Source: Pilatotrama ljubarskyi
Lineage: Eukaryota > Basidiomycota > Agaricomycetes > Polyporales > Polyporaceae
Length of the DNA stretch: 49,699 bases
Direction of reading: 5' to 3'
NCBI GenBank assembly: GCA_022385805.1
Contig: MU277704.1
Span: 248,269-297,967 of the forward strand
The notes beneath the pieces are model-generated. The model was not told the DNA's origin and ran no database searches. It saw only the letters and a list, made by a program, of their open reading frames with translations. The number at the start of each line of letters is the position of its first letter. The stretch's first letter is position 1. Of the stretch, positions 178 to 22,801 are shown in pieces. The position numbers and the translations under genes were made by a program.

Positions 178-235
178 TCGGCTGCTTTCAGTGCCATACG
201 CTCGCGTGCACCCCGTTGCACTTAGCGAGGGGGAG

Positions 236-502
236 TGTTGAACTAGGCGCTTAGTAATAGCAGCATAGTCAACCGGTCGCACTTAGTCATAGGTGCTGAC
301 GCACGGACAATAGAGTTTGTGGCTGGTAGATACTGGATAGTTCTAGCACAGCCACATGTACAGTAGTACATAAGACCGCTCTGTAGGAGCGGATCTCCAA
401 GTCGCTTTCTACCCTCAACCACTACGTGTGCCTCTACCCAAGTGCTCCACAGGTAAGCTGAGCCTAGCGGGCTTTCCGCTGCGTGCCAAGCCCTGCTCAA
501 CA
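236..502 (+). repeat. 3' LTR of copia element (family copy 1)
   Basis: A 267-bp LTR that begins TGTTGAACTA and ends CCTGCTCAACA, so TGTTGA and TCAACA are inverted ends with TG...CA termini. A purine tract (GCGAGGGGGAG, about 225-235) directly precedes it, as expected for the plus-strand primer. The same LTR occurs on the minus strand at 47127-47392 with about 11 differences. This copy reads TACATAAG where the other has TATATAAG, so its TATA-like promoter may be weakened. The flank that would carry the target duplication begins at 503 (cctac). Its partner is outside the window. Confidence 0.92.
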
Positions 503-3346: not shown

Positions 3347-3365
3347 CGAGTGCGTCGATGTTCAA
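3347..3365 (+). promoter_or_regulatory. 19-bp shared upstream element, copy A
   Basis: The sequence CGAGTGCGTCGATGTTCAA lies 195 bp before the start codon of zinc-finger gene A. It is identical, base for base and in the same gene-relative orientation, to the elements before gene B (18473-18491, minus) and gene C (21148-21166). I found no fourth copy by eye. It could be a transcription-factor site or a core promoter element; that role is inferred from position and conservation. Confidence 0.75.
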
Positions 3366-3560
3366 ATATTGTCCTGCAGGTGAAGCTTTGCTTTGGTATG
3401 TTTGCGGTGGTTGCAGTTAAGCGCTCCTAGAAAAGGTGCGGTCACTCTCCACGATTAGCCAAACCACTCCTCTGCACCTCCCTCGCACTACGTTGCGCAT
3501 CTCCGTTTGCGAAATTCACCTTCATCTACTCCCAGTCCATCACTTCACATCATCGAGACC

Positions 3561-4687
3561 ATGCACCCTACCATCGAAGTCGGTTCCTCCTCCGGCCCCT
3601 CCTCCGTTCCCGTGTCAGGCAGCTTCGACAACAATCCCTCCAACGAGCCTGGCCTACCTACGCATTCAATCGCCGCTTCATGGTTCGAAGGGGACCTCTA
3701 CTGCGAAATCAATGAATTCGATTATGATCCCGCGCTCACGCTTAACGGCGTCGAGGTAAGTCTCTCGGCGCGGTACCACCAGGATCATTGACTGACAGCT
3801 CTCTTTTACTTGCTACAGTTGGGAATCCGCTTCCCGACATACACAAGAGTCTGGGACGACGACGATGGCGCCTCCGCCCATGACGCGACTCCGTCAGGCC
3901 CATCGACCATCCCCAGTCCTCCCCTGCGCCCACGCTCCCGCAGTCTCCATCAGTCGCGCCCTTCCTCGCCCTCGCCGTCGAATGCTAGTGGCCAGACGCA
4001 AGCTCTTTCGTTGGATTGGCAGGTCGCACCGTCAGTGGGAGAGAATGAAGGGGTCGAGAGTGATGCAACCCGCGGCCAATTGCAGACTGTGGCTATTCAG
4101 GTGTGTATCACCCACTCCGGCATGTCTCCTCATACTGATCCACCTCCTCCCAGACCGTCACGTCAAATGAGGGTGACTACCAGCCGGAGGCGGGCCCTTC
4201 CAGGCTCGCCGTCGGCCCCTCGTACGTCGACGGCTCAGATAGCCACAGACAGAAGCGGCCTCGCGACGAGGAAGACAAAGAGAATGTTCCCGCGGTCGAA
4301 CAAACTCTACCATCCGCTCTCAGCTCTCCGCCCGCCAAACGCGCTAGGCTAGAACCTTCCGAGCCTCCCGTTCCCGCCACCGCGCCGATGCCAGCTGCCA
4401 CGGGGCAGGTCTGCAGGCTGAACCAGGGGCAGTGCACGCATCCGCTCACTGGTGACTACGACGTGGACCGAGCTCATCTGAACTCGCACCACGACTATGC
4501 AGATGGCAGGTTCAGGTGCACTTACCCTGGCTGCGCGAAACACTACGCGCACAAGTGCAACCGGGGTACACACGTCATGAACAAGCACTGGGGACGTAAG
4601 TTCATGTGCGATGTGCCTGGCTGCGGTAGATTGTACGCTGCGCAAGCTGAGATACCGCGGCATAAGAGGACCGCGCACCCTCCATGA
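3561..4687 (+). CDS. C2H2 zinc-finger protein A (336 aa, 3 exons)
   Basis: Exons 3561-3755, 3819-4100 and 4154-4687, joined in phase 0 with canonical gtaagt/cag and gtgtgt/cag introns of 63 and 53 nt. The N-terminal half is Ser/Pro-rich and probably disordered. A KEN tripeptide (about 201-203, DEEDKENVP) precedes a basic PAKRAR stretch. Then come three finger-like units: a degenerate one (CRLNQGQC...HLNSHH, about 246-272) and two standard C-x4-C-x12-H-x4-H fingers (about 281-304 and 311-334) joined by HWGRKF. The protein ends three residues after the last finger pair. The family is expected to bind DNA in the nucleus as a transcription regulator. It is a paralogue of genes B and C and shares their 19-bp upstream element. 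The target is unknown. Confidence 0.85.
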
Positions 4688-5269
4688 CCGGTACGTTCCC
4701 CCTTTGCCAGTGTCTGTTTCGCCCTGCCTGACCGCTTCGCAGCATCCGCTTCCACTTCACCCGTCTGTGATACCCCGTCTTCCGACTAGATACCCGGATT
4801 TGCGGATCCTCCCAGGTATACCAACATTTTTTACTCTCTGTGCTATGTCACCTCGCATGCTGCTCCCTCATCTGCATGTACTCTATCGTCCACACACGCT
4901 CTGTACTCTATTCGTTGTACATTGTACTGTATACTCTCACTGCTCTATAAAATGCCATGCATGAGATTAGTCATTACCGTGTGATTGTACCAAGGGGTCG
5001 CGATCTCGAGTAAAAAGACGTCTGAGCTGCACGATCTAGAATAGTTACGCTTGTATGAAAGGCAGCGGGATCGCCCTTTATACTTTCTCTTATTACGAAG
5101 AGAAGTCGTTGGAGGTCGCCCTCGGACAAAATGCACGACAACACTCACGCTGGACATCTGTACGCAGCTCTGACGATCCGTCGTGTCTATTGCAAAACTG
5201 CAAGCGACTCGGGGAACCGCATACACTCTGATGAGATATCTGCATGGACTGCCATCTACTGCGCTTGCT
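4688..5269. other. Intergenic spacer between convergent genes
   Basis: This region holds the 3' ends of zinc-finger gene A (+) and the F-box gene (-). The sequence around 4790-4970 is pyrimidine/AT-rich with TGTAC-rich stretches, as is common in fungal 3' untranslated regions. I see no coding signal. Confidence 0.5.
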
Positions 5270-6967
5270 CTACACTCGCGCCTCCACCGTATCCCTCCTA
5301 CGCTCCGACAAAAGACCGTCGACCCGGACACCTTCAGCACACTCGCCGGCATCGAATACGAAGTGGCACGTCCGACAAGTATCGATAACGAAGCTTGACG
5401 GTTCATCCACGCCCTGCGCTGTCGCGCGCGCGAACAGCTGCGCGGCCAAACTCGTCGTCTGCACCGTCGCTACAGACGGCACGCGCACGGCGAACTGCTT
5501 GATCTGCCTCCCAGCCAGTCTGCGCGCCGCCAGCCACGCCGCGAACACGTCCAAGTCTACGTACGCATTGTGCGGGTCCTCCGGAAGAACGGCGACGCAG
5601 AATTGCAGCGCTTCTAGGCGCGGGAGGAGGTCGCCGCGCTTCCGGAGATGCTCAAGTATGCTCTCGATGAGAGGAGCCCCGCCGACGATCATAGCCCCCA
5701 GGTTGGGGAAGGAAGCTAGCCACGCGTCCCAGTTGCACTGACCGGGCAGCCCTGGGGCGACGTGCAGTTGCATCGAGAGGATCTTGGATGCCTCGACCAG
5801 TTTAGGAAGGTCCCGGAGGACGTATGGACAGCATACCGGAAGCATGCTCCTTGGGCCGTCGTCGTCGTTGCCGCTAGCAGGAGTCCCGGTTTTTCCCACA
5901 TCCAAGCTACCAACCTTGATGCCCCATGCGGAATCGTGCTGATCGCCCGTGAGGGCGGCCTCATTGAGTCCGAACAGGCGAAAGTCCTCTTCGAGCGCAG
6001 CAGATCCGAGGTATACCGCGATGCTCTGCGACTGCGCGACCATGGGAAGAGCATGCAGCGGTTGAGGGAAGAGGTCACCCGCTAGCCACCCCTCGTACTC
6101 GTCCGGGTCGGGAGGGGTGTTCGCATAGGACGCTTCGACGTAGAAGGAAGCCGACGCAGGGATTCGAATCCATTGGAGGAACCAGCCGAGGTCCCAACCG
6201 GACGAGTCGCACATCCGCAACCGTCGCATCCGCGGTAACCGCACGGGAACCAGCTCGCCCGGCCTCTGCACAGTGTATCTCTCGCGCAAAGGAAGAGAAT
6301 CGAATATGTACAATTCCTCTAGATCGGGGCACGCGTTAAGCAGTCCGTACAGTGTCGTCTCCGGGTGCTCCCATACGTTGACGATGGACAGTTGCGTCAG
6401 CCCACGGAATGTTCCCGGGACGACCGGGGCAAAGTGCTGTATGGTCAATGCACGTAGGTTCGGTAGAGCGTCCGGATTGATGCAGAACTGGAGCGTCGGC
6501 TCAGGTTTATCGCGCGACAATATGAGGCTCCTCATAGGCGCACCAACACGCTCGACGAAGTTGCGAACCCAAGCGGCCTGGCGGTCGTGAAAGCCGACCG
6601 CGAGCCGCTGGATGGGATTGACGCGGCTCCGGACATATTCAAACATTTGTGGCCGCAGGAATAGGTCCAAAGGTGCGCGGCGGGCGCGGTTGAGAAGGGT
6701 GGAGACCGCACTGCGGTCTCGTGGGTGGTGAAAGAATGAGAGTGTTGTCCATAGCATCCGGCAGTGTAGAGCGATGTGACGCCACCGACGGCAGACCCAC
6801 GTTACGCGGATCCATTTGGCCTGGAAGCCTTGCAGCTGCCTGTCCTGTTGGGCCTGAAGGATCTCGAAGATATGCAGCAGTAGTTCCGACGGCAAGCGGT
6901 TGATGCTGTCTCTAGGATATACTACCACAGCGGGATGAGTGGTTGGGTGGAGGACTAGGGATGACAT
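5270..6967 (-). CDS. F-box protein with leucine-rich-like C-terminus (565 aa)
   Basis: A single uninterrupted frame that starts MSSLVLHPTT and ends TAG at 5270. Residues about 19-68 (INRLPSELLLHIFEIL ... VTWVCRRWRHIAL ... LW) form an F-box-like domain of the kind found in very large numbers in Agaricomycetes. Such domains bind Skp1 and recruit substrates to SCF ubiquitin ligases. The remaining ~490 residues contain repeated short Leu-rich stretches (for example LPNLRALTIQHF, LTQLSIVNVW, CPDLEELYIFDSLP) that resemble irregular leucine-rich repeats used for substrate binding. The substrate cannot be predicted. No intron is needed, and the start chosen is the first Met before the F-box. Convergent with zinc-finger gene A. 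Confidence 0.85.
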   Translation of the reverse strand: MSSLVLHPTTHPAVVVYPRDSINRLPSELLLHIFEILQAQQDRQLQGFQAKWIRVTWVCRRWRHIALHCRMLWTTLSFFHHPRDRSAVSTLLNRARRAPLDLFLRPQMFEYVRSRVNPIQRLAVGFHDRQAAWVRNFVERVGAPMRSLILSRDKPEPTLQFCINPDALPNLRALTIQHFAPVVPGTFRGLTQLSIVNVWEHPETTLYGLLNACPDLEELYIFDSLPLRERYTVQRPGELVPVRLPRMRRLRMCDSSGWDLGWFLQWIRIPASASFYVEASYANTPPDPDEYEGWLAGDLFPQPLHALPMVAQSQSIAVYLGSAALEEDFRLFGLNEAALTGDQHDSAWGIKVGSLDVGKTGTPASGNDDDGPRSMLPVCCPYVLRDLPKLVEASKILSMQLHVAPGLPGQCNWDAWLASFPNLGAMIVGGAPLIESILEHLRKRGDLLPRLEALQFCVAVLPEDPHNAYVDLDVFAAWLAARRLAGRQIKQFAVRVPSVATVQTTSLAAQLFARATAQGVDEPSSFVIDTCRTCHFVFDAGECAEGVRVDGLLSERRRDTVEARV

Positions 6968-7332
6968 GATGGAAGCGGATGTGTTAGAGTTGGTGGTTCA
7001 GATGGAGAGGAGTTACGGTTGAGGACTAGTTGCACCACGTACAATAGGTCAATCATCCGAGCGGCGGCGAATGCTGTATAGGAGAGGATTTGGCCCCGGC
7101 CTTGGAGCTAGCTAGCATTGACGAGCTGGCATTGGCAGGCGGCGGACCCTGAAAGCGATGAATAGTCTCAGTGTTTCTCTCAACGCAGTCGTGCTTACAC
7201 TCGGGGCATCGCATCCAAAGAATCGTCATAGAAGCCTTCCATGATCGAGTGAAGGAGAACTCGGTATCAATGATTCAACGCATCCCCAACCGTGGGTGAC
7301 TTGTGAAAGGGCCACCGGAGCCCGAGAGCATA
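6968..7332. other. Spacer upstream of F-box gene
   Basis: Probable promoter region of the F-box gene on the minus strand. I see no clear TATA box or other recognisable element. Confidence 0.4.
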
Positions 7333-7334
7333 TA

Positions 7335-7717
7335 CAGTCGTTTGCATAATAAAGTGCACTCGCATGCGCGGCGATATCGTGTTTGGTCATATTTGCGGCG
7401 CCAAAGAAGTCCGATATAGTAGGCACACGGCGCCTGATCAAGAGAGGACTCGCAAGCCGGCACAGTCACAGTGGGGCCAAACTCATCCCATCTCCTCTCG
7501 CAAGTACACCAAATAAGTTTTATGCGTTGAGTGAATGCTCGGACTGCTTCCGGATGGAACTATTCAATGAAGAGGTGCAGAGAGCCGCTATCGGCGCGCA
7601 CACTGGGTTCTTGATCAGGCGCTGACCGCTGCCAAATCAGGTTTCTTCACCTGGAACAAATACAGCCAAATAGCAATCGGCCGCGTGCGCGAGTGCACTT
7701 TATTTTGCAAACGACTG
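7335..7717. mobile_element. MITE with Tc1/mariner-like ends
   Basis: A 383-bp segment with terminal inverted repeats of about 29 bp. The left end (7335-7363) begins CAGTCGTTTGCATAATAAAG, and the right end (7689-7717) reads the same on the minus strand with one substitution (CAGTCGTTTGCAAAATAAAG). Both ends are directly flanked by the dinucleotide TA (7333-7334 and 7718-7719). A TA target duplication and a CAGT start are typical of Tc1/mariner transposons. There is no transposase frame inside, so this is a non-autonomous miniature element. Weaker pairing continues inside the repeats (GCGCGGCGAT versus GCACGCGGCCGAT). Confidence 0.8.
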
Positions 7718-8045
7718 TAGTGCTGGCAGCGTAGCAAGTACTCATTGTCCGTCCGCGTGACCGAACGCGCCACTTGCCTAGGCCAAAAGGCTTTGCGCGG
7801 CTTGTTGCTCGGCCAGCAAACGCTGGGAAAGCCATCCCTCCATCCACGGTCCACCATCAGGACCACCTTTCTAGACCGGTCAGTTGACGCGAGCAACAGT
7901 GCAGCGCCACAAACACGATCCTGCCGGTACGCTGCGTCAACGTCATGGTTGCCACGAAGACGCCTCCTGAGCACCCATCGGACGCGCTCGCGCAGGTGCA
8001 TCATGGATACTCGCGCAAGCGAACGCCAAACTTATCACAGGCCGA

Positions 8046-8078
8046 GTATGATGTCAAAGCCTCTGCGAGGGATATAAA
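8046..8078 (+). promoter_or_regulatory. Promoter of small stress-type gene 1
   Basis: GTATGATGTCA (8046-8056) is followed 17 bp later by TATAAA (8073-8078), about 90 bp before the start codon at 8170. The neighbouring paralogue has the same arrangement. TGATGTCA resembles a half-conserved ATF/CREB (bZIP) site; that reading is inference. Confidence 0.6.
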
Positions 8079-8169
8079 CCCGCAGAGCTGCGACGGAGAG
8101 ACCTCAGAACATCCAACGACCTCACAGCTCTCCTGACCACCACAAACACTCCTCGCGCACACTCACATC

Positions 8170-8526
8170 ATGTCCGACAACTTCAACAACAACAACAACA
8201 TGCAGGGCGGTAACAACGCCCAGTTCAGCGGCCAAGGCGGCCAGCAAGGCGGCGAGAAGCCCGACTGGATGGACAAGGGCATCGAGGCTGCCGGCCAGAA
8301 GGCGGGAGTCAACGTGGTACGTATCCCCTCGTACCGTCTGGTGGGATAGCATGCCGCTCACCTTCTACTACAGAGCCAGAAGAATGCTGATACCGCCGGG
8401 GACTTCGCCAATAAGGAGTTCAAGCAGAAGGAAGGTGAGCTGGGCGTACTTGGCCTGTGATGTTTACGCAGGACGAATCGCTGACTCTGCACGCGTTCAG
8501 GTTTCGGTCTTCCGGGCGTGCACTAA
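8170..8526 (+). CDS. Small Asn/Gly/Gln-rich protein 1 (77 aa, 3 exons)
   Basis: Exons 8170-8316, 8374-8434 and 8501-8526, all with GT-AG introns. The short N-terminus is Asn/Gly/Gln-rich (NNNNNMQGG, GGQQGGEK). It is followed by a compact conserved part, PDWMDKGIEAAGQKAGVNV, then NADTAGDFANKEFK and the end GFGLPGVH. Exons 2 and 3 have exactly the same lengths and phases (61 and 26 nt) as in the gene at 9238, so the two are tandem duplicates. I do not recognise a named domain. The composition resembles small hydrophilic stress-associated proteins of filamentous fungi, but no function is assigned. No signal peptide or membrane segment is visible. Confidence 0.82.
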
Positions 8527-9125
8527 GAGATCGCGAACAGACATGGATGCAAAGACCCTTGAATGTAACGATAGCCAGTTGTAAAACAGTTCCCTCTCCT
8601 ACGCCATGGCATTCTACGGACCGAGCGCGTGATAGTAGCTCTTGCTGTGGTGAACGCAGTCGAGAGTCGTTTGAAACTAAAGTTGTTTGCGATAGACCGT
8701 GAGAAAGCCCTCGGAGCAAGTTGGATGAGGACAAGAAGCGCTGGGGTGAGTGGAGTGGCCTAGTGTCCTGTCCCAGAAAGGCAAGTCTAGTGTTCAGCTC
8801 TCCCCACGATGCCGGAACGCTCCATAGGAGCGCGCCTGATATCAACCGCCTCATGATCTTGTTGCCAGATCCTCGCGGACCCGTACGCTAGGAAGCTCTT
8901 AAGCCGACAGCGATATTCAACATCGCCTCCAGTCGAGAGCCCTGCACGACGTGCCGGCAGGAGGAACGGCGGTCAGCTCGGGGCCGACGGCGTGGAGTGC
9001 GCCGTTTGCCAGTGGGGCGCAGGAAAGCACGACGTCATGTGTCCACGCTCGCTGCTGCCCTGTGTCCCTTGCTGCGCTCGTCCAAAATCGGCAAGGCTCC
9101 TTCCATCTACGCTCCATCTCTCCAG
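8527..9125. other. Spacer between the tandem paralogues
   Basis: No supported gene. A short stretch near 8725-8745 (LDEDKKRW in one frame, followed by gtgagt) looks exon-like but cannot be extended into an open structure. The region probably holds the 3' UTR of gene 1 and the upstream promoter of gene 2. Confidence 0.4.
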
Positions 9126-9152
9126 GTATGATGTCACCGCAGCCTATATAAA
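9126..9152 (+). promoter_or_regulatory. Promoter of small stress-type gene 2
   Basis: GTATGATGTCA (9126-9136) is identical to the element before gene 1. It is followed 11 bp later by TATAAA (9147-9152), about 85 bp before the ATG at 9238. The shared layout suggests common control of the pair. Confidence 0.6.
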
Positions 9153-9237
9153 CCTCTCGCCCGCATCTTCTGCAGCACAATCGCTCTCGCACTCCCCACT
9201 GGCACTTCATCCTCGCCCGTATACAAACGCTACCACC

Positions 9238-9743
9238 ATGTCTGATTCCTGGAACAACACCTCATCCTCCACCGGCACGGACTCCGAGTACACCCAGGGC
9301 CCCGGCGGCGGCACCCACTCCGAGGGCTTCAACCAGGGCCAGGGCACCGGCGGCGCCTACGACGAGATGCAAAGCTCCCAATCCTCCAACATGGGCGGCG
9401 GCCAGGGGGCCATGGGCTCTGGCGTCGCTGGAGGCTACTCGGGAAACCAGGGCGGCCAGACCCAGACCACGGGCGAGAAGCAGGACTGGCTTGACAAGGG
9501 CCTAGAGTCCGTCGGCAAGAAGGCCGGCATCAATGTCGTGAGTACCCAATCAATTCAAGCAGCCCTTCCGGTCCGTGCTAATATTCGATGTACGTAGAGC
9601 GACCAGAATGCCGACAAGGCTGGCGATTTCTTCAACAAGGAGGTCAAGGAGAGATTCGGTAAGTGCCCGCCGCTTGTCATGGTGCCGACGGGCAAGTACT
9701 GATGAGATGGCTTGCAGGGCGTAATATCCCTGGCGTAAACTGA
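9238..9743 (+). CDS. Small Gly/Ser/Gln-rich protein 2 (128 aa, 3 exons)
   Basis: Exons 9238-9537, 9598-9658 and 9718-9743. This is a longer paralogue of the gene at 8170. An extended low-complexity N-terminus (residues about 1-80, repeated Gly, Ser, Gln and Asn) precedes the same core, QDWLDKGLESVGKKAGINV, then NADKAGDFFNKEVKERFG and the end RNIPGVN. The core and splice positions match gene 1 exactly, while the N-terminal extension accounts for the size difference. The sequence predicts a soluble, hydrophilic, largely disordered protein. The family role is unknown to me. A stress-related role is only suggested by composition and by the TGATGTCA/TATA promoter shared with gene 1. Confidence 0.83.
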
Positions 9744-9853
9744 ACGGCTCACATCGGACTTCGGATAGAATGGACTTCTCTGTAACATAGCATTTGTATA
9801 ACGCTGGTATCACTCTGCCTCTCTCGATCGAGGCTGCGACAGAACGGCCGTAT

Positions 9854-12800
9854 TTATACTCGTGTGACCATAAAATCTTGAAGAAACGCCCGCGCTCGTA
9901 CAACCCGTCCATCCTGTCGAAAGTCTTCCAGCGCACGCTCAACAGCTCGATCCAGTTCAGATGCCAATAGCCTCTCGAGCCCTTCTCGGAGGCGCTTCGA
10001 GAGCTCTTCGACCTGCGCAAAGCGATAAATCACGCGCACACATTTCAGGGTAGGAACACTCACGTTCTCTCCACTAAACATCGTGAAGTGATCCCCAGGG
10101 ACGTCCCAAATCGCCATCGTCTCCCCTCCGAGGGCCTCCTCCCACAGCGGCATCGTCCACCGGTCTCGCTCCTTCGCCAAGAATGCACGTACGCGTCCGT
10201 CAAGCTCTTGTTCTCCGCCGCGATCATGAACAAGGCCTGTGCCCTCCCTCGCACGCAGATACACGGCGCGCAGACGAGGAGCGCGCCCACGCTCATACCC
10301 GACGAGCGCGCTCGTTGCAGTCTTCATCTGCTGGACGAACCAGCCCGCCGCGTCCGCGCGCCCAGCTCGACCGATGTGGTCACTGGCAGTGGCGCAGGTC
10401 GCGTCAAACTTCTCGCAGTCGTCACGTTGAGTTCCTGCAAGGCGTGTGGCGACCGCGGTGATGAGCCAGTCCGGAAGAGGGCTACGCGTCTGCGGTGCGG
10501 GGGCGTCGATAAGGATGAGGCCCTTCACGCAGACGCCAATGGCGATCAGCTGTCGCGCGAGCTCGTAAGCAACGACACCGCCGAACGACCACCCTGTCCC
10601 GACACGTACATGTCAGTAAGCACGACGAAGCTTTCGGATCGCGCACAGCTCACCTCCAATTAAACATTCGCCCTCGAAGCACCTCCTACTCTCCTTGAAG
10701 TACTTGAACTCCTCAATGAGCGTCATCATGTAGGACACCGCCATCGCCTGCAGCTCCATACCCAGGGCATCCTCGCACTCGAAGAGTTTCGAGAAGTCGT
10801 GGTTCCTGAATGCCCAGACATCGCATCCAAGCGACGCGAGGCTCTCGTAGCTGGACACGGTCCCGCTGCCGTCGTGGATCAGGAAGAGCGGGGGCTTGCG
10901 CGGGCTTCCTGCGGGTGCACGCTGGAGACGAACGAGCTCTGCGCCGCACACTGACGGTACCCTCTCATGCAAGCAGGGCGGTGCAGCGTAATCGACAGGC
11001 GGCGGTTCGGTCTGGAGCGGAGTGCACCCGTCAGGCTCTGGGAGTGGATTGATCTGAACAGGAGTGCCTTCTCTAATCACGCCAGCCGCGTCGAGCGCGA
11101 AGGTCTGCAGGCGTACCTCGCCCGTAAATCCCACGAGCACATCGTCTCTAAGTGGACACAGATCGTGTCCGGACGCGCCGGGGGGATCTATCACAGTGCC
11201 GGCGATCAACGCCTTCTCCGCGCTCTGAGGCACGCAAGGCTTCAGCTCTTCCGGCTCGTCCGCGCACAGAGTTAAATCGCCATCTTCAACGGCCTCGCGC
11301 GCGTGGCCGGAGGGATGGTCCCTCCTGTACTTCTCCAGAACGAGCTCCACCAGGCGCCCCACCGTCTTCGCGCTCGACAGCGTGCGAGCGTCGAGCTTCA
11401 ACGGACGCTCCGGCGGGCTCGTGTTCAGCCGGGCTGCGATCTCCCAGAGCATCAACGAGTCGATGCCGAGGTGCGACAGAAGCGGGTCGCGCCCGACTCT
11501 AAGATGGTCCTCTGGAATGCCTGCCGTCTCTGCGATGATGCGCATGACGTCGCGCGCGAGGTCGCCTTTGGCTTCCTCGAACGTCTGAGTCCTTGGTGTT
11601 GACGTCGAGTACTCGCTGGGTGTCGGAGGGACACAGTCGTCGCGTGGAGTGACGGCATTATGCCCTGCAGCGGCAGCTTGCAACGCCTTCGCAAAACTGT
11701 CCATCGCGACTCGGCGGAACCACACCCGTTTCAAGCGCGTCACTACGCGCTGGCGCGGATCGTCCACCTCGACCGCGTATACGTCCACTGCTATAGCCCC
11801 TTCCTGTACCCGCGTGACTGCCGCGTACACGCCGTACCGCGCCTTGACGTCCAAGCCGTGCTGGAGGAGTTGTGCCTTTTCAAACCGCGAGCAGATGTAC
11901 GCGTCCGCGCCGCGCAGGCCATACAGGAAGTTCACCAGGAAGCCGGAGACGTGGAAGAGCGCATCAACAAAGATGGGGTGCGCGACGAACGGCCCAGACG
12001 TAGCCGTCTTCGGCAGCTGGATGATAGCATACGCCTTGGAGGAAGGAGCACTAACAGTGATGTTCTCGATGACGCGGTAGATGTCTGAGTAGATCACGAT
12101 GGCAGGGAACAGCAAGTCGTAGACCGTCCGAGTATTGAAGGTCTCGGGTGCGCTGGCGGAGGTGGGCTGCAGGACACCTTGGGCCTCGCGCTTGACCATG
12201 GCCTCGATACTAGAGAACTTGGAGGAGCGTGTTTCCACGGGAGTCAGCTTGAAGGAGCCCTTGCAGTGCACCTCTTGCACCGCATCGCCTTCTGCTGTTC
12301 GGGATACAGTAAACGAGCCCGCACGGTCGATCGACTCGCACAGAGTGATCTCCACCTGCAGGTTATGGGGGCGTCCAGGGATATAGACCAGCGGTGCCGG
12401 GTAGAAGACGTCTTCCAAGTCGAGATCGTCATCCTTGTCCATATGCAAGTGAGCCTCGCAAGCGGAGGTGACAGCTGAGAGGACCAACTCCACGTAGATC
12501 GAGGCAGGGCAGAGCGGAGATCCGACGACAAGATGTCCTTGTATGAGGGTGGCGAAAGACGAAAGGTCCGTCTCGTACACCTCTACGACCGCCGAATCGC
12601 GTCGAACGTGCACATTGCGGCGCTCTAGACGCACATGGGAATCACGTTCCTCAGGCAAGCATCGTTCCTCGTAGGGCACCCAGAACCGCGTCTGCGCAAA
12701 GGGGTACGCCGGGAGGTCTACGAGCCTAGCACCAGGCGTCAAGTCATTGAACACCTTCCGCCACCGCACGGGTACAGACGTGCAGTACAGCTTCGCCAGC

Positions 12801-15694
12801 GCCGCGCACATCGTTTGGAGGTCGGGGAGTCCCTTACGCAGAGAAGGCAGCAGAAGCGGCGTCTCGGCAACCTGGAAACCTCGGAGGAGCGGCAGAGTCA
12901 CAGGGTGGGGGCCCATCTCGATGCATGCCGCTACGGACGAGAGGTCGATCTGCGCGGCCAAGTCAGCCATGCCCTGCTGGAACCGTGCTGGTTTTCGACA
13001 GTGGCGCGCGAAGTACGATTCGTCGAAGGCGCTAGCATCTCCGGGGTGAATCAGGGTGCCGGTGACATTCGACAGCACAGGAATCGTCGGGGCGGACAAC
13101 TTGATGTCCCGGGACAAGGCATAGAGCGCGGGGAGTGCAGAATCCATGGCGGCGGAGTGGTACGCGTAGGGCACGACGAGACGACTGTGATGTACTCCTC
13201 GCGTATCCAAACGCTTCTCGAAGCATTTCAGCTCATCGAGGGGACCGCCGACTACGAAATTTGACTCGCTATAACGTACAGATATCAGGTAGCGTGCGTT
13301 ACGACGCAGAGGAAGGCCACTAACCTGTTATAACAACAAACCTCCAGGTGCGAGAAGCGCCCCACTCCGATGGACGATGCGATGGCGTCCGCCGACGCTC
13401 TGACAGAGGTCATGCCAGTCGGCTCAGCAATGCTGCTGGCGGATATGGCCTCCGCGCGTCTGATCACCAGACGGAGGGCATCAGGCAGAGTAAGGCAACC
13501 GGCGACTGCCAGCGCGGCGAACTCGCCGAAACTACAGCAGCAAACGCATCAGCAGGATGCATCTCTGGACAGGAAACATCGACAACGTACCTGTGACCCA
13601 CCACAGCATGTGGGCGAACTCCCCAAGATATCCAGACTTGAGCAAGGGCGTACTCGACGACGAACAAGGCTGCCTGGTGTGAAGCGAAGCGCGCGGATTC
13701 GCCCGGACCTGAGGGGAATACTACGCCTTGGAAGAGGTCCAGGACTCCCGGGCTCCCCAACTCCAAGAGCTCGTGATGGCACTCATCCACGACGTGAGCG
13801 AAACCCGGGAAGCGCTTGTACAATTCGCTGCCCATACCGACGTACTGTGAACCTTGGCCCGAGAATACGAAGATCACCTTGTCGCAAGGTCCGGCTTCGA
13901 CTGCCTTCGCCACTCCAAGATCAGCGATCAATTCTTCCTTCGAGCTTCCCATGATTGCGATACGATACGGATAAGTCTGCCGACGGGCTGTCGCAGAATA
14001 GGCAAAGTCCTGTAGTGTGGCCTCATCCTGGACGCGCTCGAGCTCGGTGAGGTAGGCCTTCCGGCGCTGCTCCAGAGCAGCGAGGCTCCTACAAGAGAGT
14101 CCAACTAAAAGCTCTCCGGCGACGGGGGCGGGACGAGGAGGCATACCGTGCTCTTCAAGAATCAGTGCGCTGTTGGACCCAGCCGCGCCAAAGTTCGCGA
14201 GTATCGCGATGCGCCTGCGGTTGTCCGGACACACCCAGGGAATCTCGACAGTATTGATGCGTATGTTGTCGATGGAGAGGTCGGGGATCCTAGGGTTGAG
14301 CTTCTCGAACGAGATATGCCGCGGTATAGATTGATGGCGCATCATCAGGATGAGTTTCGCCAGACTCGCTGCTCCGGAGGCGGCCTCAGCGTGACCAATG
14401 TTCGCCTTGATAGACGTGATATAGAGCGGATTGGTGTCGTCTCGACCGACTGCGAGGACCTTCCGGACCGCTTCGAGCTCAGCAGGGTCGCCCGCTTGCG
14501 TTCCTGTCCCGTGACATTCAGCGACGCTGATGTCGCGAGGATCAAGTCCTGCGGAGGAGACGAGTTTCTTGAAGAGTGCAGCTTGAGCGTCCACGTGGGG
14601 ATGAGTGATTGATGATGCGTTTCCTGACTGGTTGAGTTCAATGCCCCGGATGACGGCCAGAATCCTGTCGCCCTCGGCGATCGCATCGTCGAGGCGCTTG
14701 AGCACGAAGAGACCACAGCCCTCAGAACGACAGTATCCGTCCGCTGAGGCATCCCAGGGGCGGCACTGACCAGTATCGCTCAGAAAATGCCCCCGAGCGA
14801 GACCCAGGTACATCTGAGATAGGTGGTCAAGACTGACTCATGAGAAAACGATAGAAATAGCTCACGTCCGGACTGGTTATGATGTTGACTCCGCCCGCAA
14901 GTGCCGCATTGCAGTCACCGGAAATGAGAGCGCGACACGCCTGGTGGATGGCGACAATAGAAGATGAGCATGCTGTGTCCAGTACCATCGAAGGCCCGCC
15001 GAAGCCGAACACGTAGGACAATCTTCCACTGAGGAAGGCCGGGAGGGTACCTGCTGACGCCTCAGTAGAGACATGGAGAAAACGACAAATTTGATCACCA
15101 GTGCTGTAATACACGTCGACGTTGGTGCGCAGATTTTGGACGTAATCGTTCGTCGCTGCTCCGATGAACGTGGCGAAGGTGTCCGGATCGAAAGTAGGCG
15201 TCGCGGCAGGAGAATACCCCGCATTCTCGAGCGCTCGATGGGCTAGTCGTAACAAGACTCGCTGTTGCGGATCCATGCTACGCGCCTCTCTGGGCGATAT
15301 CTCGAAAAACGTGTTGTCAAACATATCAGCGTGATCGATGAAGTTGCCCATCGTGACGTTCATCCTTCTGGAAGCGGTATCCGAGTGTCGAGGATGCGTA
15401 TGGGCAGAGACTTTGAAGCGAGTAGGAGGAATCTGATCGACAATGAAGTGTTACCGCATAAGACGCTTGCTAAATAGAATGAACCTGTTCGACCGTGTTC
15501 AAGCCTTCCTGCAGAACCCTCCACAAAGCTTCGGTATCCTCCGCTCCAGGAAACTCGGCGGCGATGCCAACAATTGCAATTGCTTCTGGGTTGAGGAGGT
15601 GGGTATCGACGCTTCCTGTCTGAGGACAAGTCGATCCGTTTGCGAGCCGCCTTTCATAGCTCTCAGCCACACTAGTGCCCTCTCTTCCCGACAT
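9854..15694 (-). CDS. Non-reducing polyketide synthase, KS-AT-PT-ACP-TE (1836 aa, 7 exons)
   Basis: Exons (minus strand) 15694-15485, 15432-14866, 14813-13591, 13531-13325, 13268-10654, 10593-10064 and 10012-9854. All splice in frame and restore motifs across junctions. Visible domains: ketosynthase with DTACSSS (active Cys about 225), [10 protein letters not shown] and [10 protein letters not shown]; malonyl acyltransferase with [12 protein letters not shown] and GHSFGE (Ser about 667, codon split by intron 3); product-template domain with [15 protein letters not shown] (His about 981) and PIFVDALFH (Asp about 1171); one acyl carrier domain with [10 protein letters not shown] (Ser about 1340); thioesterase with GGWSFGG (Ser about 1610) and PGDHF (His about 1776). 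No ketoreductase or enoylreductase is present, so an aromatic product such as an orsellinate-type acid is expected from the family. The usual N-terminal SAT starter-loading domain is absent: the protein begins about 30 residues before the ketosynthase. No tailoring enzymes are adjacent. Confidence 0.93.
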
Positions 15695-15908
15695 CTAGTC
15701 CCAGTCAAGAGACGTTTCAGTTCCTGGTATTATTGTCCCGCGGCATGGCGATGTTAGCGCGACTCACCAGTGACAAGGTACGACTACACAGAACACTGGG
15801 CGCTCCCTAAAACCTCTGGAGGGGACGGAGAGCTCCGGTCGTGTCGAACCCTGCTATGGCGAGGGGGAGATGCAGCTCACAGAAAGCGAGCGAGAGCGGC
15901 CCTATATA
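15695..15908 (-). promoter_or_regulatory. Polyketide synthase 5' region with TATA-like site and possible leader intron
   Basis: On the minus strand, TATATAGG (15908-15901) lies about 210 bp before the ATG. A good intron (gtgagt at 15766, ending ...gactag immediately before the ATG) could be spliced from the leader. No reading frame with a Met continues through the sequence upstream of that donor, which argues against a hidden upstream coding exon here. Confidence 0.45.
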
Positions 15909-16980
15909 CGATTTTGCATTTGACAGCTCATGAGCCATGCAAGTACGGAAGCACGCCACACGGGCACCTCGAGCATTCTGGTCGAAGGTGGATATGTTGG
16001 CAGAATATGCTGTTCGGGAGACAGGAACGACGTTTCTTGTGCGTAGCATGTTCTCTCGCAGAAGACAAGGAAGGCGCGAAGTCACGAACTCTGCCGGCAA
16101 GCTTGTCCAAACACGAACAAACTCTCACGCTCGACAGCTCAACACAACTCGATACACACACACGGTGCTGTATTAGCCATGACTGTCTTCGCAGCTAACT
16201 GGAAAGCAACGCATGCAGACTTGGAGATCAGTAGCGCAAGTGCAGTAGGCTGGGCAGGCTTCGTGACCACTCGCTCGGTGACTGACGGGCTTACAATCAT
16301 TGTGGACTGCACAGTAAGTAGCGAAGTTGGGCCAACACCTCATCATAGTTACAAACCGCACTGCAGAGTTATAACGGCGACGAAATACGAGCGAATTATG
16401 AGATACTTGGCGGTCGAGAGACGGTGCCCGGGAGTTTGACGACGCAGTGCAGTGAGCAGCAGATGGCGCGGGGGCCCGATTGGCTCACACTCCTCGCGTA
16501 GGAAGCCTGGCTTCCGCAGAATGGGCTAGGCTCCTTCCCAGAAAGTCTTCGGGAAGTCGATGAAAGAGCCTGTCTTGCACATCAGGTTGTCAGTATCTCA
16601 AGCAGTAATTCGGGCGGAGACTAGTGGTACATACCCCGGCCGCGGACAATCAACGCTTTGTGCCAGTTACGGGGTAGCAGGATCAAGGAGCTGCTGGGAA
16701 TGCTACACGTGGAGGAAGGCGGTCGAGAAGATGTCGAATAGGAAGGAGGGAAGGCCTCGAGATGTGCCTAAAGCGAGGAGTCTTCATACGCGCGAGGCGA
16801 AGGTACTCTTCTCGTGCCATCAGCGACCTTGTTCCTGGTGCGAGCGTTCAGCCACGGAGATCGTCATACTAGACCGCATGTCTTACTTTCGGCGCTGCGC
16901 CGAAGCTTGTAACTCCTTTGCGACTGTGATAGATGTTCGCCATCGATGCCGCTTAGATCGACCAACATTCATTGGTCCTC
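15909..16980. other. Spacer between polyketide synthase and zinc-finger gene B
   Basis: No supported gene on either strand. In particular, no frame resembling a SAT domain was found. The part near 16981 is the 3' flank of zinc-finger gene B. Confidence 0.5.
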
Positions 16981-18324
16981 CTAAGTGGGAAGGACTTCAC
17001 CTGTCATACTATCGTCAGTAGGGAGCTCGATCATCATGAAGACATCGAGTACTTACCTGGATGGCGCCTTTCAAAATGACGCAGCATAGAGTCCAGACGG
17101 CTCAGGGACTTCCCGCATAGCGGACATACCGCTCCCCATCCCCAGTGGACCGTCGCCATATGCCGGACCAGGTTCGCCAAAGTCTTGGCGGTCGCAGTGC
17201 AGTTCCCATATTTGCATGGTAACACCGTCGGCTCGGGCACATTCTCTTTCTCCTTTCCTTTCCCCTTCCCTCGAGTCTTGCCCTTGATGCCCGTCGCGAC
17301 CGCCAGGCATTCAGGATAGTGGGCTTCCTTGAAGTGCTTTAGGGCGATTCCGCGGCTCACTCGCGCCTGACAACGGTCAACGCCGCATCGAGTGCCGGTG
17401 ACCTTCGTATCGTACTTCCGCGCCTGCTGTACAGCCATACGAGAGCGCTTCAGCGCAGGGGCGTCGCAATGCGATTCGACGGCCGCATCGCTCAGAGGGG
17501 AAGACAACCCGACGGCGTCCTCCCGGACGTCTTCTTCTTCCACATCTCCCTCGTGGGCGTAGGCGAACGCGTTATCCCGCTTGCGCTTGGGTCTGAGCGT
17601 GCGATGGGGAGGAGCGGGAGCGGAGTCCATGATTGAGGAGGAGCCTTTTGGGCTTCCCGGACTCCGACTCTCCATCTAAGGATGGTTACCTAGTTAGTGG
17701 AAAAAATGGCACGACTTCACTGTTCTTGCGCACCAGGCCCGACCACTGATCCTCTCGCTCATCATCGGATCCCCACACCGCCACGTCCTCAATGCGCGCG
17801 TACTCGTCTGCCCCCATATGCTCACTTATCAGTGACGAGCGGAAACGCTAGAGGGTGCGAAGCTCACCTTCGCGATCACAGCCTGCGTCCCAAAAACCGT
17901 CTTCGGACTCTTCGCCACATTCGGACGCTTCTGCATCTTCCGACTCTTCCTCCTCTTCAACCTCTTCACCATCTTGATCTCCGGTCGCTTCTGAGGTCTC
18001 TTCTTCGACCTCGAGCGAGTCTTCATCTTCGTCTGACGCGTACACAACGCCGGTTACCTCGAAATCATCGCTACCGACCTCCACGTCGTCGAGGTCAGCA
18101 TCAGAGGAGTAGCCACGAATCTCTCTATCGAGTTCCTCCTCGTCCAGTTCGACATCGTTCGCGTAGGTGCTTGAATTCGAAGCTTGACAGAACGAGTGCG
18201 GAGATATCGAGGTGCGCGTCGATGCTTCACGATTGGTGAGGCACGAGAGTGGATGTGAGAATTGGCCAGCCTCTTGGGAACGTGCAAGGCGTTCGGAAGC
18301 AATGACGACGGAGGAGGCGCGCAT
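16981..18324 (-). CDS. C2H2 zinc-finger protein B (389 aa, 4 exons)
   Basis: Exons (minus) 18324-17868, 17807-17734, 17675-17057 and 17000-16981. Introns are 60, 58 and 56 nt with good branch sites. The N-terminal third is highly acidic (many Glu/Asp, about residues 60-150), which could act as an activation region. Exon 3 carries a basic stretch (LRPKRKR), ALKRSR, a first finger (CGVDRC...HFKEAH, about 274-296), a Lys/Gly-rich linker, a KEN tripeptide (about 320-322, KEKENVPEP), and two further fingers (CKYGNC...HMATVH, and CPLCGKSLSR...HFERRH) joined by HWGWGAV. The last exon adds only EVLPT. If the final intron (donor gtaagt at 17056) is retained, the frame stops at 17034 instead. Paralogue of genes A and C, with the same 19-bp upstream element. 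Confidence 0.82.
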
Positions 18325-18472
18325 TGTGGACGGATGCTAGATGGATGTATGCGTGGTGGTTGATGGATGGAGTGTTAGAGGTATGGAGAGAGTAAAAAAG
18401 AGTAGGTCGCGGTTGTGGTTGACTGAGCGCGCCCGCGCTGTAAACAATTGCAAAGTACCCGATCGCGTTCGG

Positions 18473-18491
18473 TTGAACATCGACGCACTCG
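18473..18491 (-). promoter_or_regulatory. 19-bp shared upstream element, copy B
   Basis: CGAGTGCGTCGATGTTCAA on the minus strand, 148 bp before the start of zinc-finger gene B. Similarity to copy C extends outward on both sides (TCACG and CGCG blocks upstream, C then GAA downstream). This suggests either common descent of the promoter or a larger site. Confidence 0.75.
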
Positions 18492-21147
18492 ACGCGTCCC
18501 GCGCGTGACCGTAACTCGCGTGTCTGGACATTCCTTTGTCTGAGCAGCGCCATCGAAACTCAACGATGCACAGTACACCATGAGACGTGGGATACTCACC
18601 GATGTCTGACAGCACCCTCGCATGGCGCGCATTGTGTGTCCCCGCGAGAGCCACATAGCGTGCACCTGCACCGAACTCGAAAACCCCTCCAAGACGCGCA
18701 GCAGGTGACATCTCCACCTCGCGAACGTGCGCCGCTGGAACGTAACCGGGCGGGAGAACAGCGTGAAAGCGCGAGGATCGCCATCCGCTGACCAGTGGTG
18801 CGAAACGCGAGGCGGCCGCCCAGCCTGCCCGGACTATGCTCTGGACGTCCCGTAGATATGCATCCGGATGTCCTTTGATGCATGGGCAATGCGCATTCTC
18901 CCGGACGAGGACAAGTTTCTGGATCGACCTTCGTACTACAACGGCACTGCTGAACGCGCTATGGCTCGATCGCCTAACTGTAACGCGCCCTTTCAAAGGT
19001 ACGTTTCGGGTTTCGCTCCTTCCTGATGTCTAGTCTCCGTGGTATATCTGGCTACAAAGCGCTTCCAGCTTGTGCTCCCCACGCCGTGAGGACAGAGCAC
19101 AAGCCGGAAGCACTGTAACAGACATTGTGATGCGGCAGGGCAGCAGAATGCCATCGCCCAGCGTCTTTGTCAGGATGATTGGCGAGGCACCCTGTTGCAG
19201 CTCTCCTGCTGTGGATTAGGCTTTCCCGATGGCCAAGACTGGAGAAGCAGTCGTTGAGCACTCATTGCATGTCCGTAATGCGGGTGCAATACGCGACTCC
19301 TGCTTGAATAGCACAAAAGTGGCCCTATGCTTCTCGGCTCCTTTGCTCGATACAGTGGCAATGCGCGCCATGGCCACACCTGTGAAGAGCAGTCAGACAA
19401 ACAATGGGAGCGTCCACAAATCATACACAACCGCAATCTCCATATTTCCTCACGCGAGGCTGATCGTTCCCACACAACACAAGAGCAGAAGATGGTTACG
19501 GTATCCCTGACATGCGTAATCATTCAAGGCAGCCTGAGCTTGATTTCCGGTTTACAGAGGATGCGACCCGTACGAGCGTGAACTGTTGCTTGACAAGAGC
19601 GAGAAAAGAGGCAACCTCAGCATGAGAGACGAATGAGAGAGGTTTCAGGGACAATCGGAACAAGGAAGGCCGCGGGAGCGCGCTCGAGCCAATCACGCTA
19701 TCAGAATATGTACACACTCCGATGATAGGATCGTTCTTCAACATCTTCAACTTCTTGTACGAGCACACACTCTTCATCGCACCTCCACCATGGAATGTAC
19801 TCCTTCTCTCGCTGTTCAATCACTCAGAGCTCCAAAGACCACGGCTTCTTGGAGTTACTGAAGGTGAGCCTTTGAGGGCTCGCGAAGACGTCCACTCCGA
19901 CAACGCCGTCGTACGGACAAAACGGACCACAAAGGCGATCTGCTGATCAGACCCGCATGTGCACTATCCTACACGGCCACGCCCAAGGACCCGCAACGCA
20001 ACGCAAGATGGCGGGCGGATGCTTGCTGGTGTTGAGCTCTGTGGAGGCGACGCGTCAGCGACTCAGCATCTCGCTAAGTCGGCCTATTAACCCTAACCAC
20101 GGTAAGCATCGACCGAGCGCTAGTCTTTGTCTCCGCCGACCACCGCGGGTCTCCTTGATCGAAATGCATGGGACCGCAAAAGCTCGCGTTCCATGGCTTA
20201 TAGATGACATTTGCTTCTTACTCTTGCTCGGGTGACAATGACTATGGCCTGGAAAGATGAAGTGCGCGGCCCGACGAGCAGAATCGTTCAATCCATGTAT
20301 TGGGCGATCCTTCTCACGTTTCCCTTTGTCCAAGTGGGAACCACTCCTACGAATGTCTCCCTGTTTGGGTTCAAAGCACAAGTGTCAGCTGCGTTGGAGA
20401 CCTACGAGTAACGGGGACTCTCCCCAGACTGGGTACCGCAAACGATGCACACCGAATGTATGGACGCATGGCAGATCACATCGGTGGATTCCGCGTCATT
20501 ATACCTAGATTTAAAGCGATTTCAACGGGCTGGACATTGAGCGCACTCTCCGAGTAGCTGGAAGCCCTCTTTGACGCATCGGTGACCAACAATTGCAGAT
20601 GTGCAGGAGCTTTCGGCCCCACAATGAGAGGTGCCGATGGCTCATGCAGCACGCGATTGCCTCTTTCGAGGCCGCGAGTTCCTCACTGGCTATCACAGAA
20701 GCCTAGGCGGCATCATATAGTCTGCGGGGACATAAACGCAATATATCGGCATCGCACCGTCCTCCGGCGCTGTCCAGACGCTGTGTATAAAAGCAGGAGA
20801 GGGATAGGAGAACCAAGGATGTCCTCTAGAAGCCATTGGGCAGTCATGAGGCTTTCACGCACCTGGAACTTACTCAAGATCTCTTCAGAAGCGGTCTGGA
20901 AGTCACAGGCTTCTTCGCGCATTTGGCGTGGTGGTGTCCACGCACCCAGGACGACCGTACTAGACGTGGCCCAAGCTTTGAGATGGGGAGCCACAAAGTC
21001 TGGACGGCGCCGATCAAGCGTTCATACGAAGAAGTGAGTCGTATAAGGCGTCGCAATGTTCGTGGTGCTAAACAATAGTGATACAGAGCACGACTGTAGA
21101 ACGCCTCAGACGAAAGCGCCATTGTTGTCACGTTCGCGCGGCGCGAT
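18492..21147. other. Gene-free stretch between divergent zinc-finger genes B and C
   Basis: 2.6 kb without a supported gene. Several short open frames exist but none combines coding bias with splice sites. The two ends act as the promoters of gene B (minus) and gene C (plus). Confidence 0.5.
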
Positions 21148-21166
21148 CGAGTGCGTCGATGTTCAA
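21148..21166 (+). promoter_or_regulatory. 19-bp shared upstream element, copy C
   Basis: CGAGTGCGTCGATGTTCAA, 168 bp before the ATG of zinc-finger gene C, identical to copies A and B. Confidence 0.75.
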
Positions 21167-21334: not shown

Positions 21335-22801
21335 ATGGATTCATCACGTTACGAGTTGCTCAAGGAGTGGTTCGACGTGGACAAGTTCGAGGCGGATTTC
21401 GGAGGTTCTGTTGAGAATACGGAGAACCCCAGCGGAGACACATCGGTCAGTCTTCCTCTCTATTTATGCAGACTCGGAAGAATTGAACATGCGGAGCTGT
21501 TCTACAGGGTATTCTCGGCGACGTCACGATGCTGACCCTTCGGGCTAGCTCTTCCACAACCAATCACACCCTTTCATCTCGCGAAGCGTCCCATGCCGAG
21601 CCCCAACCGAGCAACCCATGTCTAACACCATACCAGCCGCCAACGCCCTTCGGTAGCCACGCACACTCGCCTACAACGGAACACAGATGGCGGCGTTCAT
21701 GTACTCGGGAAGAAGCGATGGCTATCCATGAGGACGCGATCAGGGAGCGGAATGAGGTGGCAACATCGCCTGCTGTCCGGCTTGGAGGAAGGCCATCACC
21801 GAGTGGTGATCCAAGCCATTCCGAGGTACTCCATTCTCAGCGCCTGCTCTTCCTGGAAATGGCTCACTCATATCTCTGTCGTTTCGTGTTCATAGCTCGC
21901 TCCAAGTGCTTCCCATAGCAACTCTATCAGCGGTATCTCTTCGCCACGTCGAGCTTCCCAGCAGCCGCAACCGTTGCCGGCTTTAAACGCTCCCGACGTC
22001 CCGAATACTCCCTTCATCCATCACGACGACAAGGAGAATCACCCTCCTCTCGAAGGAGCATCCTTGGCGAAAAACATCCCGCGTCAACGTTCCTCAGACG
22101 ATCTCGTGGGTATTCATGGTCGAAAACGCCGGCATTCAGCGACACAGGCGGATTCGGCGGCAGGCGTATCTATGACAGTGGCTGCCGGCCACGACGGACC
22201 CTCGAATCACAACCAGGCGGCGCCGAAGAGACTTCGTACGGGAAACAAAGGCCGGAGAACGCAGCAGGAGTTGCAGGCGGATCAGAGGCGTTCAAGTGGT
22301 GCGAGGACCTGTGGGCTGGACGGTGGATGCTCCTGGGCCTTGGCCGGCGAAAGGGAGGGGCGCGCCCATATTCGATCACAGCACTATCCTGCCCAATCAA
22401 CGTCGCCGGCCTCCTCGTCATTGTCTATAGACTCGTGTTCGAACTCTGTCCCTCTGGAACATGGTTCAGACCCGGATTCGGACTCGGACTCGGAGGCGGA
22501 CTCGACGGCGGACTCAGAGGTGGAAGATGAGACGGGGCTTGCGGACGGAGACCGGCCGTGGCGGTGTACGCACGTCGACTGCGATCCTCCAAAGCGGTTC
22601 GTCAATCGACAAGACCTGATCCGTCACATCGAGTCGGCGCACTGGGGCTCGACATTCGTGTGCGAAAAGTGCGGCAGGGACTTCAGTCGTCGGTACGCCC
22701 TGGTCCGGCACCGTAGGAACACAAACGCCTGCCAGAAACGGAACAAACGCAGACCATCCAAGAAGCCGCAGCCACCCGGAAAGCGGAAGAGGCGGAAGTG
22801 A
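21335..22801 (+). CDS. C2H2 zinc-finger protein C (444 aa, 3 exons)
   Basis: Exons 21335-21445, 21508-21825 and 21896-22801, all joined in phase 0 as in gene A. The first exon encodes MDSSRYELLKEWFDVDKFEAD, loosely like the WFEGDLYCEINEF segment of protein A. The middle is Ser/Pro-rich. A KEN tripeptide (about 189-191, HDDKENHPP) precedes APKRLR and a degenerate first finger (CGLDGGC...HIRSQH, about 282-306). An acidic Ser/Asp linker leads to finger 2 (CTHVDC...HIESAH) and finger 3 (CEKCGRDFSRRYALVRH, closing with Cys rather than His). HWGSTFV joins these two. The tail is strongly basic (KRKRRK). A nuclear DNA-binding regulator is expected; the target is unknown. Confidence 0.86.

Follow-up and report, generated by a model that had tools for sequence, protein, structure and literature searches.

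A 19-bp element recurring in the promoters of one C2H2 zinc-finger gene family of Pilatotrama ljubarskyi

Why should three dispersed and distantly related zinc-finger genes be preceded by the same 19 letters? The source organism, Pilatotrama ljubarskyi, is a wood-rotting fungus, and the window considered here is the whole stretch of 49,699 nucleotides that was analysed. The 19-mer, CGAGTGCGTCGATGTTCAA, is found in three exact copies: at 3347-3365 on the forward strand, 195 bp before the ATG of gene A at 3561; at 18473-18491 on the reverse strand, 148 bp before the ATG of gene B at 18324; and at 21148-21166 on the forward strand, 168 bp before the ATG of gene C at 21335. An earlier note had placed it at these three sites and strands, 148-195 bp upstream of genes of one C2H2 family and in one orientation relative to the gene, and each of these points holds. 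The note's further claim, that the recurrence exceeds chance, is borne out by 100 shuffles of the window, which yielded 0 occurrences (0 expected by chance). The rest of the window, scanned with up to three mismatches, holds no fourth copy. The 19-mer is probably a promoter-proximal cis-regulatory element, kept by purifying selection before the members of one family of C2H2 transcription-factor-like genes in Trametes-related polypores and most likely read by a single common factor that switches the family as a unit.

Across the 33.1-Mb genome, the element is nearly restricted to this family. With up to two mismatches, it occurs at 10 places, seven in promoters of C2H2-family genes and three in one tandem triplet; an eighth family gene, H, has a copy with three mismatches. 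With up to three mismatches, there are 24 places for the 19-mer versus nine for a reversed-pattern control, so that the word is not common genome-wide, a check that had been set beforehand. For comparison with homologous promoters, the element can be written as YCGARYGCRTCRATGTTCAR. A degenerate 20-mer finds 22 places with up to two mismatches (three for its reversal) and 10 with none (the eight promoters and two members of the triplet), a test that is partly circular because the pattern was built from these same copies. Counting against exclusivity, the 13-base core is common when one mismatch is allowed (237 places versus 86 for its reversal). Five other exact core matches were considered as extra targets and rejected: all lie inside open frames of unrelated sequence. 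Three are plainly coding-like (two stretches that we take to be CTP-synthase-like and P450-like, and a 332-codon frame), and the frames around the remaining two do not exceed 122-152 codons. Chance recurrence is ruled out by the shuffles, the genome scan, and the degenerate-pattern scan. Tandem Repeats Finder reports three arrays in the window, all of them away from the element sites, which removes a tandem repeat as the source, and a transposon end was set aside as unlikely since no flank is common to all copies.

The element varies little in placement as well as in sequence. Each of the eight copies points the same way with respect to its gene, and their distances to the ATG span a narrow range (148, 149, 162, 168, 177, 181, 195, and 251 bp), measured from start codons that match annotated proteins for F and G and were called here for the other six, the annotated start of E being different. 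When the eight promoters are aligned, 14 of the 19 element columns are invariant, and information drops directly beside the 19-bp block. The flanks of 19 of the 28 promoter pairs are no longer alignable (z < 3 on both sides); the other nine keep some likeness (z >= 3 on one or both sides), so common descent accounts for part of the picture. Promoters A, B, and C have nothing else significant in common (local-alignment z <= 0.8), and their proteins are distant too. The earlier note had reported flanking blocks common to B and C, which did not survive testing: the flanks score z 0.8 upstream and 0.6 downstream, and for each of the three 10-base words they have in common, the spacing to the element differs between the two promoters. 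Promoters A, B, and C cannot be aligned over their full length, which rules out a recent segmental duplication for these three genes. The core of the earlier proposal, a kept promoter element tied to a C2H2 family, therefore stands, given this and the scarcity of the 19-mer genome-wide, and it now extends to eight genes. Retention is not strict in H, where three element letters are altered though the gene looks intact.

Gene A (3561-4687, forward strand) has exons at about 3561-3755, 3819-4100, and 4154-4687, and gene C (21335-22801, forward strand) at about 21335-21445, 21508-21828, and 21896-22801, the introns of both being called by eye. Each product has a DKEN motif, a basic stretch, and three fingers, which in A are C-terminal. 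Gene B (17053-18324, reverse strand) has a first exon from 18324 and a finger exon at about 17675-17053; its 3' end and inner introns are provisional. The products of all three genes carry C-terminal C2H2 fingers and are related; across the family, the proteins are about 20-46% identical to one another. Eight aligned family proteins have 12 invariant columns (six Cys, four His, and two Arg), the Cys (in three pairs) and His showing finger-type spacing. Among the four proteins scored against Pfam PF00096, B (28.5) lies above the cut-off of 25.2, F (19.2) and H (14.8) lie below it, and A has no match. In E, annotated as P0002, the Cys and His continue in the third-finger part. The tripeptide KEN, possibly a KEN-box (APC/C degron), is read in A, B, C, E, F, G, and H and in the remnant of gene D, and in B it sits between fingers and not in the stretch ahead of them; it was not seen in gene I, whose last exon alone was read.

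Genes D and E were found via the element and are not independent of it. Protein searches (E <= 1e-4) reached seven genes with readable upstream DNA (A, B, C, F, G, H, and C48:29652), six of which carry the element; they also reached gene I, which starts too near its contig end to enter this count. The exception, C48:29652, is a zinc-finger gene related to F (E 1.4e-8) in which the roughly 3 kb preceding the frame hold no element at up to five mismatches; the element of F lies 7 kb away. Except for this copy of F's own, no element (up to three mismatches) lies within 20 kb of 24 other zinc-finger-like places.

Gene D is broken. Its element, at C35:239694-239712 and about 9 kb outside the window, has two changed letters, both at CpG, and its promoter shows clear flank likeness to that of A (z 8.5 and 9.5). 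A degraded finger-like remnant at 586-780 on the forward strand (finger profile E 0.0034; best family BLASTP only E 0.029) is read as the 3' part of this gene, and copia-like LTR sequence lies between it and the promoter.

The near letter-perfect 19-mer precedes the family genes and hardly anything else in the genome, and it thus looks like a common control switch. A common DNA-binding factor would recognise it upstream of each family gene, and binding there would switch the whole family together as a co-regulated unit. Protein binding, an action on transcription, and activation rather than repression are each inferred. At 19 bases, the element exceeds most single-factor fungal binding sites, a point against the one-factor reading. 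Judged from the finger sequences, a common activator fits better as the candidate binder than the zinc fingers themselves, the other possibility that the earlier note had raised. Auto- and cross-regulation by the family's own proteins would suit genes whose products have sequence-specific DNA-binding folds, and multi-finger proteins would be in keeping with a long footprint; Arg at position 6 of finger 2 and Arg at position -1 of finger 3 each occur in seven of the eight proteins compared. By the C2H2 recognition code, on which the contact-residue argument rests, the finger 2 contacts (-1/2/3/6) nevertheless vary among paralogues (HCNT, TANR, NQDR, NQGR, DQGR, QVNR, and THDR in a table that omits E). 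One identical 19-mer is not expected for all members when contact residues differ in this way, which leaves auto-regulation possible but rather unlikely.

That the element is a mere leftover of a promoter copied with each gene, by segmental duplication or gene conversion, is very improbable. The genes are indeed paralogues in constant orientation, and the promoter pairs at z >= 3 (strongest in A-D, G-H, F-G, and B-D) speak for copying, but promoters A, B, and C lack any other significant likeness, and it is not credible that gene conversion acted on just these 19 bp at eight separate places. Slighter still is the chance that the element acts in 5' leader RNA. Every copy contains an ATG, and at 148-251 bp from the main ATG the element could fall inside a leader; the short frames opened by the element ATG, however, differ in length and sequence, and conservation is about as tight 5' of it as 3' of it. 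The element might instead be a chromatin or genome-structure signal (e.g., a silencer, insulator, or nucleation site) and not an activator site, in which case a triplet without a gene would be natural. The copia-like sequence adjoining gene D and the position of the triplet would agree with this, but constant orientation and a narrow start-codon distance in eight genes fit a promoter better, and such a signal is improbable.

The triplet, on contig C36, consists of three element matches in tandem with no recognisable family gene nearby, and is the exception to the family restriction. It is flanked by coding-like frames that stand about 4 kb apart. As the promoter of a decayed family gene it was rejected (tblastn E 0.35 or worse); a family-profile match (E 3e-4) was likewise set aside, as the frame reads Arg/Pro-rich without finger cysteines, and a finger-profile match (E 0.035) falls in a frame 3 kb from the triplet. 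Reading frames adjacent to the triplet have per-codon scores of -0.12 to 0.02, below the 0.10-0.23 of the training exons, but two family exons score 0.05 and 0.01, not clearly above them, so that coding next to the triplet is unlikely rather than excluded. Partial core copies show no excess nearby (two extra per 10 kb versus 0-3 extra in four other 10-kb loci).

In general, the upstream activating sequences of fungal regulons are short kept words at a narrow distance from start codons and rare in other promoters. The 19-mer resembles them in its narrow start-codon distance across a gene set; it differs in being 19 bp long and nearly invariant and in that the genes are paralogues encoding regulator-like proteins. 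Among the open-licence papers listed in literature searches, none deals with this element or C2H2 family, and none contains the element's 15-letter string. A survey of C2H2 genes in another agaricomycete, Flammulina filiformis, likewise includes promoter analysis, with 2-kb promoters scanned against the PlantCARE catalogue; in the parts consulted, it describes no long element common to one subfamily (PMC11433517).

Since the proteins have diverged to the extent given above and the promoter word is nearly fixed, the element could serve directly as bait in a search for the factor and as a route to learning when an uncharacterised regulator-like family of white-rot fungi is used. If the preferred reading of a common promoter switch is true, the family would be a testable case of constrained expression with specificity free to evolve. 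More speculatively, an expanding, fast-diverging transcription-factor family may stand under one dedicated 19-bp switch, whose reader would be either a single factor with a long footprint or a heterodimer. New copies would appear and their proteins diverge to new targets with every letter of the switch kept, giving one timed burst of regulators, perhaps removed together via their KEN motifs, and the C36 triplet would serve this circuit as an array of high affinity.

Searches for homologous proteins gave matches in Trametes, Cubamyces, and one ENA contig only. Those of Trametes cingulata (OH77DRAFT_1438094, OH77DRAFT_1522555, and OH77DRAFT_1553508), Cubamyces menziesii (C8Q70DRAFT_1054618), and Cubamyces lactineus (C8Q73DRAFT_788953) are annotated "hypothetical protein" and share with the Pilatotrama family its basic stretch and the fingers at the C-terminus. 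KEN is present in all three T. cingulata proteins, as in Pilatotrama, and absent from all three Cubamyces and ENA proteins; in the two from Cubamyces, REN or DEN takes its place.

The promoters have a second word in common, TTAGCC, which in A occupies 3455-3460 on the forward strand inside an 18-bp block that recurs in promoter D. It stands between element and ATG in half of the eight promoters (A, D, F, and H), with eight copies in 1,431 bp of element-to-ATG sequence versus seven in the entire window.

A 19-bp element, CGAGTGCGTCGATGTTCAA, lies upstream of three genes in the window, A, B and C, each of which encodes C-terminal C2H2 zinc fingers. It matches exactly at 3347-3365 (+) before gene A, 18473-18491 (-) before gene B and 21148-21166 (+) before gene C, the three places and strands reported in an earlier note. 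With up to 3 mismatches allowed, the window holds no further match, and 100 shuffles of it gave none. The position 148-195 bp before C2H2 genes described in that note was also borne out (A 195, B 148 and C 168 bp to the ATG), as was the single orientation relative to the gene, which extends to family genes D to H elsewhere in the genome, each read individually.

In the 33.1-Mb assembly, CGAGTGCGTCGATGTTCAA occurs at up to 3 mismatches in 24 places (9 for the reversed pattern). The rarity that the earlier note proposed to check is found: at 2 mismatches or fewer the 10 places are the promoters of A, B, C, D (C35:239694), E (C48:5732), F (C48:22806) and G (C153:6646), plus three tandem copies on contig C36. 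One 3-mismatch place (C153:10180) was read and belongs to the promoter of family gene H, and the 13 others were counted without individual reading, at a level where the reversed control gives 9. Family genes lie downstream of the element in D to H (D is broken), at 181, 149, 162, 177 and 251 bp from the ATG, respectively; the ATGs of F and G match annotated proteins P0001 and P0010, whereas P0002, the annotated protein for E, starts elsewhere, so that the first exon given here for E, as well as the start codons chosen for A, B, C, D and H, is a call of this analysis. A degenerate form, YCGARYGCRTCRATGTTCAR, derived from these same copies, has 22 places when 2 mismatches are allowed, versus 3 for its reversal; of its 10 zero-mismatch places, eight are the promoters and two belong to the C36 copies.

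The family proteins have their parts in a common order, with the N-terminal stretch followed by the tripeptide KEN, a basic stretch and the fingers, except in B, where KEN lies between fingers. Scans of four proteins matched no domain in the N-terminal stretch, apart from one weak Mitofilin match below cut-off in H, and the Pfam C2H2 model cut-off is reached by one of four proteins tested (B). Sequence likeness is low: BLASTP gives E 3e-7 for A-C, 8e-8 for B-C and 1e-3 for A-B, in the family alignment the proteins are 20-37% identical to F, and the closest pair, H and I, shares 46% over 191 residues. BLASTP ties gene E weakly to the family (E 0.001 to 0.002 against F, H and I), and its membership is seen in the aligned Cys, His and basic stretch. 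Among the best candidates sharing exact words, beyond which further relatives may exist, homologues outside P. ljubarskyi, a Polyporaceae polypore, were found in Trametes cingulata (three), Cubamyces menziesii, C. lactineus and one ENA contig. The first 23 kb of contig C48 contain E and F, and G, H and I lie together on the 18-kb contig C153. In the public annotation G is split into two records, P0006 and P0010, whose contig is listed with 26,332 bases, a mismatch with the 17,973 bases of C153 here. Part of the family may be one cluster that the assembly broke, in a set of 173 contigs much of whose sequence is near contig ends anyway.

Across the eight aligned promoters, 14 of the 19 element columns are invariant; the variable columns are 4 (G/A), 5 (T/C), 8 (G/A), 11 (G/A) and 19 (A/G). 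The base directly 5' of the element is T in six promoters and C in two (1.19 bits), the base directly 3' carries 0.7 bits, and stray flank columns further out reach up to 1.46 bits. When both flanks were locally aligned with the element removed and scored as z against letter shuffles, 19 of 28 promoter pairs remained below 3 in both. Because the other nine keep flank likeness, some common descent of the promoters is visible, most clearly for A-D (z 8.5 and 9.5), followed by G-H (8.2), F-G (6.0), B-D (5.1), D-F and D-H (4.2), B-F (3.2), and A-F and B-E (3.1). Among A, B and C the element is the sole shared sequence (flank z at most 0.8); these promoters are not end-to-end recent duplicates, and the flanking blocks that the earlier note assigned to B and C were not recovered (z 0.8 and 0.6).

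Protein searches with finger regions (F, A, C, H and E) reached 24 zinc-finger-like places outside the family, many of them weak. The 20 kb to either side of each are free of the element, with up to 3 mismatches allowed, save that F's own copy sits 7 kb away on the 3' side of C48:29652. Of all the non-members, C48:29652 comes closest to the family (E 1.4e-8 to F), and the roughly 3 kb preceding its long frame contain no match within 5 mismatches. Of the seven testable genes reached by protein search at E <=1e-4 (A, B, C, F, G, H and C48:29652), six carry the element, a count that avoids circularity by omitting D and E, which were found via the element, and that also omits I (C153:17213), whose open frame has only about 200 bp of contig upstream of it. 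Exact matches to the 13-base core, GCRTCRATGTTCA, number 16 genome-wide, 11 of them at element places already named; the remaining five (two on C16, one each on C18, C52 and C111) are within open frames of unrelated sequence, three plainly coding-like (PYMNIDAGTM, ICPGRHFADASMF and a 332-codon frame) and two less certainly so. This short core alone is not specific, since with 1 mismatch it occurs in 237 places versus 86 for its reversal.

In general, fungal upstream activating sites are commonly placed at such a distance from the start, and a promoter word marking a regulon is a known kind of feature. The element is the sole feature common to all eight promoters, in one orientation throughout, and from this arrangement we infer a putative common factor that would bind it in each promoter, so that the family would be switched together. 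The main rival is auto-regulation by the zinc-finger proteins themselves. The finger contact residues (positions -1, 2, 3 and 6) of seven family proteins (A, B, C, F, G, H, I) were compared with one another and with those of one T. cingulata protein. Arg occupies position 6 of finger 2 in seven of the eight, and likewise position -1 of finger 3, but the other contact positions vary between proteins, which under the C2H2 recognition code makes it unlikely that they read one identical 19-mer. A separate common factor thus remains the preferred reading. Unusual here are the length of the element, how little it varies while the proteins have diverged strongly, and its near confinement to a single regulator-like family; among open-licence papers, none on the element or the family was found.

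The C36 copies form a head-to-tail triplet with a 22-bp period (C36:198175-198237, or 4676-4738 of the stretch L010), one copy having 1 mismatch. The coding-like frames that enclose this locus are about 4 kb apart, and the frames directly beside the triplet are not clearly coding. Family searches gave no convincing match and no recognisable family gene at this locus, and the 10 kb around the triplet holds two extra near-core words, no excess over other loci.

In gene D, the promoter and first exon give way to other sequence, after which comes a KEN-bearing piece at 7725-7970 of L009, the stretch of contig C35 that holds it. Beyond this piece begins an LTR-like sequence, which recurs behind a copia-like frame at window 1-300. 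Window 586-780 holds a degraded finger-like remnant. D appears to have been interrupted by inserted sequence (window 1-780 and L009 4695-8028), part of it a copia-like LTR element with whose end the window begins; on our reading, its promoter, KEN piece and the window remnant would be pieces of one broken gene. A second copia-like fragment, at 47451-48314 (-), has nearly the same frame as one ending near window 176. Two letters of D's element are changed, each at a CpG, which is what a loss of constraint would produce; this sign is suggestive only, because the intact-looking H has three changes.

The promoters of A, D, F and H have a second word, TTAGCC on either strand, in the interval from the element to the ATG. 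The eight promoters hold 8 copies in 1,431 bp from element to ATG, versus 7 in the entire 49.7-kb window, a density whose significance is post hoc, the word having been picked by eye and A and D being sister promoters; the 300 bp upstream of the eight elements contain none. Elsewhere in the window, the frames at 9854-14813 (-), between genes A and B, presumably resemble polyketide synthase, and a 391-aa open frame at 44646-45821 (+) contains a GNKEN stretch.
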